64,000 bases of DNA, taken from assembly GCA_020850325.1 (NCBI GenBank), contig JADZEW010000016.1, forward strand, positions 124,001-188,000. The letters are read 5' to 3'. Positions 58,372 to 61,281 of the stretch are shown here, one piece after another (position 1 is the first letter of the stretch; the number at the start of each line of letters is the position of its first letter). Position numbers and translations under genes: made by a program. Under the pieces are notes generated by a model. That model was not told the origin of the DNA and did no database searches. It worked only from the letters and a program-made list of their open reading frames with translations. The DNA comes from Methanoregulaceae archaeon. Its GTDB lineage: Bacteria; Armatimonadota; Fimbriimonadia; Fimbriimonadales; Fimbriimonadaceae.

Positions 58372-59916
58372 ATGGGTTTGGTGGGACGAGTGGGCCGAAA
58401 GCGGTGGCGGGCACGCATCGCGATGGCCGTCGTCTACTTCATCCTCTCCCTCGGCGCGTTGACTACGCTCTACCCCTTCGCGATCATGGTCTCGACCGGC
58501 TTCAAGGGCCCGACCGACCAGAATGACCCGAGCCTGATCCCACCCTACTGGTCAAACCTGGCGAACGACGAGGAGCCGGGCAGGCTCGACCCGAAGTCGC
58601 TCCTCGGCAAGTACCTCGCCGACAAGTACGCTGGGGATCAGAGCCAGATCGCCAGCACGCGCGGCGGCCCCACCGAGACGAAGGATTACGAGCAGTTCCT
58701 CATGGAACTGCCCCTCGACCACTGGGCGGCCGGGTTCCGCACCGCGCCGAACCAGGTCACCGGCCGCCTCTCGCTGCGCTATCAATCCTGGCTGCGAGCC
58801 AAGTACCGCACCATCGACGACCTGAACCGCGCTTACATCGAAGAGCACACCGCCTTTCAAACCGTACAGCCGCCCGCCGAACTGCTCGAACGCGCCAACT
58901 GGCAGGCGGCGGACACCCCCAAGTACCGGGAGTGGCTGGAGTTCAAAGCCACCCTCCCCGCCGAGTTCCGCTTGCCGGTGCGCGGACAGCGCATGTGGCA
59001 GGAGTATCTGCGCGCGAAGTTCGAGAACCAGTTCGACCGCGTTCCCGCCGAGTTCGTCGGCCAAGCCACCAGGTTCGAGGCGGTCCCCCTGCCGAACGAC
59101 TTCAGCACCGGCCTTCCACTTGCCTTCCGCCAGACGGTCCCCAAGCGTTATCAGGGCAAGTTCGTCGAGGACCACTGGGGCGGACCGATGCCGATTGAAG
59201 CCTATGAGGGCGACTTCGTCGCGCGTCAAGCCGAGACGCTGCGTCGGGAGTTCACCACCCGCAACTACCGCTACGTGCTGGATTACATCGCGCTGAACGG
59301 GCGCGCCCTGTGGAACACCGCGCTCTTCTGCATCCTCGCGATCCTCACCCAACTGACCGTGAACCCGCTCGCGGCGTACGCGCTATCACGGTATCCGATT
59401 CGGGCGTCGGGCAAGATCCTGCTATTCCTGCTGGCGACCATGGCGTTCCCCGCCGAGGTAGCGATGATTCCCTCGTTCCTGCTGCTGAAGGACCTCGGCC
59501 TGCTGAACACGTTCGCCGCGCTGGTGCTGCCGACGGCGGCCAGCGGCTACATGATCTATCTGCTCAAAGGCTTCTTCGACTCGCTGCCCCCCGAACTCTT
59601 CGAGAGCGGGCAGATCGACGGAGCGAAGGAGTCCACGATGATGTTCCGCATTGCGATGCCGCTCAGTAAGCCGGTGCTCGGCTACCTTGCGCTGATGGCG
59701 TTCATGGGCGCGTACGGTGCTTTCCTGTACGCGTTCTTGGTCGCCCAAGATCAGCGCGTGTGGACCCTGATGGTGTTCATCTACCAGCTGCAGAACACGG
59801 CTCCCAAAGCGGTGATGATGGCGGCGCTGACGCTAGCCGCGATCCCGACACTCTTCGTGTTCCTCATCGCCCAGCGTGCGATCCTCCGCGGCATCATCTT
59901 GCCCGGCGAAAAGTAG
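58372..59916 (+). CDS. Carbohydrate ABC transporter permease (MalG type) with large periplasmic insertion
   Basis: A 514-residue inner-membrane subunit of a binding-protein-dependent sugar importer. TM1 is about 17-42. Unlike MalG (about 300 residues), about 235 extra residues (roughly 62-297) are inserted before TM2 (NGRALWNTALFCILAILTQL). The insertion is soluble and contains YQSWLRAKYRTIDDLNRAY, a phrase like one in GH42-type galactosidases. The EAA loop that contacts the ATPase is ESGQIDGAKESTMMFRIAMP. No binding protein or ATPase gene is adjacent. The insertion may bind ligand or the solute receptor; this is inference. Confidence 0.88.
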   Translation: MGLVGRVGRKRWRARIAMAVVYFILSLGALTTLYPFAIMVSTGFKGPTDQNDPSLIPPYWSNLANDEEPGRLDPKSLLGKYLADKYAGDQSQIASTRGGPTETKDYEQFLMELPLDHWAAGFRTAPNQVTGRLSLRYQSWLRAKYRTIDDLNRAYIEEHTAFQTVQPPAELLERANWQAADTPKYREWLEFKATLPAEFRLPVRGQRMWQEYLRAKFENQFDRVPAEFVGQATRFEAVPLPNDFSTGLPLAFRQTVPKRYQGKFVEDHWGGPMPIEAYEGDFVARQAETLRREFTTRNYRYVLDYIALNGRALWNTALFCILAILTQLTVNPLAAYALSRYPIRASGKILLFLLATMAFPAEVAMIPSFLLLKDLGLLNTFAALVLPTAASGYMIYLLKGFFDSLPPELFESGQIDGAKESTMMFRIAMPLSKPVLGYLALMAFMGAYGAFLYAFLVAQDQRVWTLMVFIYQLQNTAPKAVMMAALTLAAIPTLFVFLIAQRAILRGIILPGEK

Positions 59917-59979: not shown

Positions 59980-61281
59980 ATGGCGAAGAAGCGGAGATTT
60001 GCGCCGTGGAAGCTGGCGATCGGCCTCGTTGTCGTGATCGTTGGCGGGGGTTGGGGCACGCTCAAAATCGCCGAAGTACGAGCTACCGCCGAGGCCGAAC
60101 GCGCAGCCTCTAGGCTGCGCAAGTTGGGCTACCCCACCACGATCGCCGAGTTCCGGGCGCGCCTGCCCAAGGACGGCCCCGACAACGCCGCACCGCTGTA
60201 CAAAGAAGCCATCGCGCTTATGGAGCAGATCGGCACGCCCAAGTTCGACTTCTCCACGCCCGACGGCAAGATCGACGAGCAGAAGCGCATCGCGGTCGTT
60301 ACGGCCATGGAGCCCGTCTACCAGCTGCTGACCCGAGCGGCCGAACTGCCACGATGCACCTTCGACCGCAAGTGGGAAGATGCGTTCAACGTGCCGTTTC
60401 CCGAGTTCGCGCACATGCGGAACTTCGGCCGCATTTGCACGGCTCGCGCCGAGGACGCCAGCTCAAAGGGCAACTGGGAAATCGCCCTCGACAGCTTGGC
60501 GATCGGGGCCAAGATCGCCAACCACGCGCGGGAGCCGAGCCTGATTGCTCACCTTGTGGCGACCGCCGGGGAGTCGGTGACCATGAAGTCGTTCTACAAC
60601 GTCCTCATCCGACACCGTAGGGATCCGCGGTTCCTGAGCGCGGCCCGGAAGTGGCTCGCCGCCTTGCCTCCCCCCACCGACCGCCAGCGGGCGCATGACT
60701 TCGAAATCGTGGGCTTCCGCGCGGGACTGGACGAGATCGCGAAGGACCCGAAGGCGTTCCCCGTCGAGCAGGATTCGTGGGAGGGCTACCTGGTCACCGG
60801 CTATTTGCGAATGCCGCTGGGCCGCCGGTCGGTCGAGGCGCTCTATCTCAACCGCATGGCCAACGCGCTCGAAGACCCGTACGAGGATCCGTGGCAGGAT
60901 CTCCAGCGGTGGAGAGATCTCGATGCGGTGTTCGAGTCAGACAAGTCTCTGCTCGGACGCGTCACCTCGATCTTCGGACCGGTGTACGCGCAGGCCCAAG
61001 TTGCCTTCGCCCGCGGCGCAACCCACCGACGTATGGCGGACGTCGCGCTCTGGGTGTGCGAGCAGCGGGTGCAGCTCGGCACGTTCCCGTATCAGCTCCC
61101 TGACCAAGAGCGATTCCACGACCCGTGGACCGGCAAGCGGTTCATCTACTCGACCAGTGGCGACCAGTTCAGGATTCGCTCGGTGGGACCCAACAAGGTC
61201 GATGACGGCGGGCAGACTTCGGGCGGAGGCACGCGCACCGATGACGATGAAGTGATCATCGATCCGGCTAAGGTACGTTAA
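59980..61281 (+). CDS. Membrane-anchored protein of unknown function
   Basis: A 433-residue protein with one N-terminal transmembrane segment (LAIGLVVVIVGGGWGTL) and a long helical soluble domain (AEAERAASRLRKLGYPTTIAEF, and NWEIALDSLAIGAKIANHA). The C-terminal end QFRIRSVGPNKVDDGG resembles the end of pseudopilin-type or Planctomycete hypothetical proteins. I cannot name the family. GATAAT lies five bases before the ATG. It overlaps the convergent H-X9-DG gene by 14 bases. Confidence 0.72.
   Translation: MAKKRRFAPWKLAIGLVVVIVGGGWGTLKIAEVRATAEAERAASRLRKLGYPTTIAEFRARLPKDGPDNAAPLYKEAIALMEQIGTPKFDFSTPDGKIDEQKRIAVVTAMEPVYQLLTRAAELPRCTFDRKWEDAFNVPFPEFAHMRNFGRICTARAEDASSKGNWEIALDSLAIGAKIANHAREPSLIAHLVATAGESVTMKSFYNVLIRHRRDPRFLSAARKWLAALPPPTDRQRAHDFEIVGFRAGLDEIAKDPKAFPVEQDSWEGYLVTGYLRMPLGRRSVEALYLNRMANALEDPYEDPWQDLQRWRDLDAVFESDKSLLGRVTSIFGPVYAQAQVAFARGATHRRMADVALWVCEQRVQLGTFPYQLPDQERFHDPWTGKRFIYSTSGDQFRIRSVGPNKVDDGGQTSGGGTRTDDDEVIIDPAKVR

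Follow-up and report, generated by a model that had tools for sequence, protein, structure and literature searches.

The window, by which we mean the whole 64,000-nucleotide stretch of DNA analysed here, encodes a protein whose sequence marks it as the MalG subunit of an ABC sugar importer of the maltose type (CUT1) (Table 1). Its first periplasmic loop (P1) is enlarged by a predicted soluble domain made of tandem repeats, which resemble one segment of GH42 beta-galactosidases. We lean towards reading this protein as part of an importer in which the receptor is tethered to the MalF half and the P1 loop of MalG has been enlarged as a docking scaffold. The substrate class would be oligosaccharides, not further specified.

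Table 1 Features of the long MalG gene, with their positions in the window
Feature	Position	Strand	Basis
MalG-type (CUT1) permease gene, enlarged periplasmic loop P1	58372..59916	+	ORF, 514 aa; PF00528; PDB relatives; Foldseek
TM1 (residues 12-44)	58405..58503	+	model helix 12-44; hydrophobic stretch 12-43
Inserted periplasmic domain (predicted), residues ~61-285	58552..59226	+	pLDDT; separate fold; identity contrast
Degenerate repeat unit 1 (residues 77-121: KYLADKYAGD...KDYEQFLMELPLDHW)	58600..58734	+	profile 1.2 + 3.6 bits, weak
Repeat unit 2, GH42-like (residues 137-202: YQSWLRAKYRTIDDLNRAY...WLEFKATLPAEFRLP)	58780..58977	+	profile 43.7 bits; Pfam GH42
Repeat unit 3 (residues 209-262: WQEYLRAKFENQFDRVPAEF...FEAVPLP)	58996..59157	+	profile 13.2 bits, 5.4e-6
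BPD_transp_1 permease core (residues 344-508), incl. EAA loop	59401..59895	+	Pfam

Several comparisons support the assignment to the MalG type. The permease core matched BPD_transp_1 in Pfam (E 7.8e-13; 49 bits against a curated cut-off of 26.4), and the closest NCBIfam and PDB relatives were MalG, UgpE, SugB and AlgM2, the last matching at E 3.4e-17 among PDB sequences. Similarly, in Foldseek searches the permease part matched solved MalG-type folds (8hps_B, E 2.6e-07; 3rlf_G; 4xtc_N). The EAA loop, which couples the permease to the ATPase, reads ELFESGQIDGA (residues 408-418), with E408, D416, G417 and A418 conserved in both our 25- and 65-member alignments. The protein thus combines a domain match above cut-off, an EAA loop and the permease fold with a genome that also encodes a MalF, a receptor and a MalK-type ATPase, as expected of a CUT1 permease. 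Its core, EAA loop and P1 position are as in the E. coli/Salmonella MalFGK2-MalE system, AlgM2 and SugB.

The alignments with MalG, UgpE, SugB and AlgM2 start only at about residue 290-313 of the 514-aa permease. Since residue 85 of E. coli MalG aligns to residue 313, the TM1-TM2 loop exceeds that of the E. coli protein by about 225 residues. After the hydrophobic stretch at residues 12-43 there is none until about residue 306, and nothing within residues 60-297 resembles a transmembrane segment (the highest Kyte-Doolittle mean over 19 residues is 0.31). Because the N-terminus before TM1 is positively charged (GRVGRKRWRAR), the positive-inside rule places it inside and the TM1-TM2 loop outside, where P1 of MalG likewise lies. 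AlphaFold2 modelled the TM1 helix, a helical soluble domain and the permease core in that order (mean pLDDT 86.2, pTM 0.83; insert mostly >90; 65-member alignment). Modelled alone, residues 56-304 reached a pLDDT of 94.7 and a pTM of 0.90, and were helical with three short strands. These models predict that the insert is a soluble domain that folds independently. A first-pass annotation of this DNA had proposed an extra soluble domain of about 235 residues between TM1 and TM2 on the outer face; our analysis bears this out, with an excess of about 225 residues, and the confident fold of residues 56-304 on their own speaks against an insert that folds within the membrane domain.

The insert is composed of a repeat of about 61 residues, present in two clear copies and a remnant. 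We built a repeat profile from distant relatives only, leaving the window sequence out. This profile placed units at residues 137-199 (43.7 bits) and 209-246 (13.2 bits); it also picked up a remnant around residues 77-120. The insert as a whole scored 64.2 bits, compared with 12.7 for the best shuffle (1,000 shuffles made, 890 sequences reported). Unit 2 is the most conserved repeat. Where the window permease has the degenerate unit 1, distant relatives such as L133 (residues 66-128) carry a complete unit; the L133 insert holds five units of about 61 residues each, with the consensus LYQEFLRSKYKNDIEALNAAYGTVAPSFEELELPAWAPTAGPKWADWLEFKKTLPARFRIP. Fimbriimonadales-type members have two detectable copies (43 of 46) or three, and other members two to six. 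The window copy is a reduced version, with 2-3 repeats as against up to six elsewhere.

The first-pass annotation had also likened a phrase in the insert, YQSWLRAKYRTIDDLNRAY (residues 137-155), to GH42-type galactosidases, and this similarity is real. The window permease matched the Pfam GH42 profile at 16.8 bits, below the cut-off of 21 (residues 136-176 to profile positions 153-198), and relatives clearly exceeded the cut-off. For example, L133 matched GH42 with E 4.7e-20; four of its stretches were involved, and the strongest covered profile positions 148-217; at E <0.01, Pfam matched GH42 to 17 of the 65 homologues. The catalytic glutamates of GH42 are E136 and E295 in model positions (PMC5725463). 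The matched profile segment follows the acid/base glutamate E136, and both glutamates lie outside the match; from its position after E136, we infer that the segment is subdomain H. Foldseek searches of the insert against the PDB returned no global match. Nearly all of its weak local matches were GH-A or GH14 glycosidases (GH35, GH42, GH14, GH50 and GH167 enzymes; best E 0.059), and in the local alignment with 7vl0_B 34 insert residues superposed at 0.8 A.

These results bear on a possible origin of the insert by capture or decay of a glycoside hydrolase, which might still act on the sugar being imported. The GH42 labels that Pfam gives to some homologues would favour such an origin, but a single short profile segment is matched, repeatedly in some members, with E136 and E295 excluded; the insert model contains no TIM barrel, and the fold matches are local fragments. 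We consider this explanation very improbable and in substance refuted, and with the sub-threshold score of the window permease we rejected the insert as a GH42 enzyme. The resemblance, as far as the alignments reach, covers one non-catalytic segment only, repeated in tandem. The subdomain H segment of the Thermus A4 GH42 enzyme resembles the MalG repeats in sequence (profile 148-217) and, locally, in structure, but it occurs there as a single copy in a TIM-barrel enzyme, whereas the MalG repeats are tandem and free-standing, without barrel or catalytic residues. In these repeats, a segment of TIM-barrel glycosidases persists as a free-standing repeated unit. The Pfam GH42 labels on many long MalG permeases also carry a risk of misannotation as beta-galactosidases. 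The sole other weak match to the insert profile in the window's genome was L198 (G000:C5), a 1004-1082 aa ORF whose N-terminus is charged and repetitive and which matches GH42 below the threshold (15.9 bits, profile 125-234).

To place the insert in the phylum, we examined 80 loci from a search of named genomes, nearly all of them in Armatimonadota; the matches elsewhere came from single or few MAGs labelled Phycisphaeraceae, Chlamydiae and Actinomycetota. The window therefore most probably belongs to an Armatimonadota genome near the order Fimbriimonadales. A Rhizobium plasmid match over 86% of the query was rejected, as it spans overlapping MalF and ordinary MalG genes. We then surveyed 291 genomes of the phylum (long MalG at E<=1e-60, SBP-MalF fusion at E<=1e-80) and found the long MalG in 145. 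Other MalG matches in these genomes align to the permease part only, many in frames of about 250-330 aa. By these comparisons, the insert is one of the features that define an old MalG subfamily found across the phylum. A recent local insertion in the window's genome was rejected, because orthologues across the family and the phylum carry the insert; the idea that the window permease had privately gained a module does not hold. As to whether the insert is common to all MalG proteins of the group, it is so within the long-MalG subfamily, and other MalG proteins are without it. A divergent pair (L188 / L065, G002:C70), in which a 1020-aa SBP-MalF fusion adjoins a 665-aa MalG whose repeats are arranged differently, falls below the survey thresholds.

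At many loci outside the window's taxonomic order, the long MalG adjoins a protein of about 805-956 aa in which SBP_bac_1 is followed by a MalF-type permease. The best homologue of this SBP-MalF fusion in the window's genome (G000:C11:25030-27375, minus strand, 809-827 aa) holds SBP_bac_1 and BPD_transp_1 in one chain, and a hydrophobic stretch (461-486) joins the two domains in the fusion. The two genes often share an operon: among the 68 matches listed outside the window's order, 40 have the long MalG and the fusion <=4 kb apart. The fusion occurs in 138 of the 291 genomes, 134 of which have the long MalG as well, and 142 genomes have neither (Fisher p 1.5e-63, with shared ancestry ignored). 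In the window's family the two genes are unlinked, so that their pairing there rests on co-occurrence. The C11 fusion is most likely the partner MalF of the window MalG, with which it would form one complex. This putative partner joins a receptor domain to a permease subunit; a tethered receptor would follow for the window's importer, given the partnership suggested by co-occurrence. One OB_MalK ATPase is encoded in the window's genome, on contig C1, and is therefore probably shared, like the multitask ATPases known in other bacteria (PMC7658222); it would then serve this importer too. The E. coli maltose importer, in contrast, has a free periplasmic receptor and an ATPase encoded with the system, whereas here the receptor is putatively tethered and the ATPase lies elsewhere.

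In the window's family, the gene neighbourhoods gave no hint of the substrate: the orphan MalG gene lies beside a flagellin-like gene, and the orphan fusion gene beside RecA-, YmdB- and PriA-like genes, which were named from their sequences. The operons of distant relatives contain mixed neighbours that point to no consistent substrate. Glycosidase genes lie near some relatives, namely a GH106-type gene beside L132 and a gene for a GH42-trimerisation-domain protein beside L143. Many Fimbriimonadaceae relatives (L031-L063) have a divergent flagellin-like gene upstream of their long MalG, whereas in the window's genome the long MalG is preceded by an RMNT_CmcI-family methyltransferase gene.

In the arrangement that we propose, the MalF half would be fused at its N-terminus to a solute-binding protein, and GH42 subdomain H-like modules would have enlarged the P1 loop of MalG. 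The resulting repeat array would lie above the entrance to the permease on its periplasmic side and act as a docking scaffold, holding or orienting the tethered binding protein, while the importer would draw its power from a shared MalK-type ATPase whose gene lies elsewhere. A 2007 paper by Daus et al. (cited in PMC3150292) describes, to judge from its title, contact of MalG P1 with the binding protein during the E. coli/Salmonella transport cycle. Because P1 makes this contact and the receptor is putatively tethered to the other subunit, the enlarged loop is best read as a docking scaffold, and by the same analogy the insert may dock the receptor. The receptor-docking suggestion of the first-pass annotation is thus plausible; its interpretation stands in part, for the soluble domain, the GH42 phrase and the plausibility of docking, though not for a private gain. 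In its most specific form, a phylum-wide importer subfamily whose MalF-tethered receptor is clamped by a tandem GH42 subdomain-H-like array from MalG P1, the proposal is tentative, and we give it slightly less than even confidence.

We also asked whether insert and receptor diverge together. Their partial correlation was 0.55 in 29 genomes without housekeeping controls, and 0.26-0.28 (p 0.02-0.05) in 19 genomes with PriA and MutS2 as controls. The insert correlated with MutS2 itself at 0.22 (p 0.08; 19 genomes). Co-divergence is not clearly above this control, and we set it aside as proof of docking.

Conservation of the insert is uneven, and it bears on two other explanations. Mean identity to Fimbriimonadales-type orthologues is 47% in the insert versus 80% in the permease part. 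This faster divergence would suit a spacer or anchor that touches peptidoglycan, the S-layer, an outer-membrane porin or another periplasmic protein, or that stabilises the permease, as would a repeat number ranging from two to six, as often in spacers. SBP-MalF fusions also adjoin ordinary MalG proteins of about 280-300 aa; we therefore rejected the notion that every fused receptor needs a MalG of enlarged size, since a tethered receptor alone does not call for the enlarged domain, and this pairing too is in keeping with a spacer. However, P57, K80, N152, P168, E170, W177, F191, K192, L195, F252, P257 and P274 are near-invariant across distant lineages, and the insert is retained in every full-length gene examined, so that we consider a spacer or anchor decidedly unlikely.

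The insert might alternatively be the permease's own glycan-binding module, which would capture a sugar chain or a glycan of the cell surface and pass it on to the receptor or the channel. Its repeats contain conserved aromatic residues (Y81, Y86, Y106, F109, Y137, Y145, Y155, W177, W188, W269), it is akin to a segment of sugar-active enzymes, and there are the glycosidase genes near L132 and L143. Yet the matching GH42 segment excludes both catalytic glutamates, many of the aromatics may be positions of the repeat core, and the putative partner already carries a dedicated sugar-binding protein. In the A4 enzyme, moreover, the segment is implicated in forming the pocket when the protein trimerises (PMC5725463). 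We regard a glycan-binding module as somewhat unlikely, and retain the docking scaffold as our preferred reading. Lineage differences in repeat number offer natural variants with which the function of the domain can be probed.

Each element is already known on its own, be it the maltose-type importer, the tethered receptor or the large periplasmic loop. Receptor domains are fused to the permease of an ABC importer in OpuA and GlnPQ, which thereby tether the receptor to the transporter like the putative SBP-MalF partner; these systems import osmolytes or amino acids, whereas here SBP_bac_1 is fused to a MalF-type N-terminus and it is the opposite subunit that carries the enlarged loop. OpuA has two substrate-binding domains (PMC11065425). 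Similarly, E. coli MalF has in its P2 loop (residues 91-271, anti-parallel beta-sheets; PMC3150292) an insertion that, like the window insert, is large, folded and periplasmic and belongs to a permease subunit of the maltose type; P2 contacts the receptor. P2, however, is another loop of another subunit and consists of beta-sheets, whereas the MalG insert is helical and repetitive. For the combination of a tethered receptor with tandem GH42-segment repeats in MalG P1, we found no description in the literature searched, from which most subscription journals were excluded. If our reading is true, a canonical ABC importer has altered its handling of the receptor by tethering it to one subunit and enlarging the receptor-facing loop of the other, and a fragment of an enzyme fold has found a new use on a transporter, where it forms a repetitive scaffold for docking.

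Several further observations concern these genes and their surroundings. Directly downstream of the long MalG, the window encodes a 433-aa protein (59980-61281, plus strand) with no Pfam match at E up to 1, which relatives do not retain next to the long MalG. In the relatives L138 and L142, cysteine-rich, zinc-ribbon-like stretches (CPKCG, CSKCG, CPVCG) occur within the fused solute-binding domain, which is unusual for a periplasmic protein. Finally, contig G000:C11 holds, at locus L052 (7700-11889, minus strand), a second SBP-MalF fusion, of 817 aa, and after it a MalG-type permease of 581 aa with apparent extra N-terminal membrane helices and a different TM1-TM2 insert of about 140 residues; the gene for the putative partner of the window MalG lies directly downstream.
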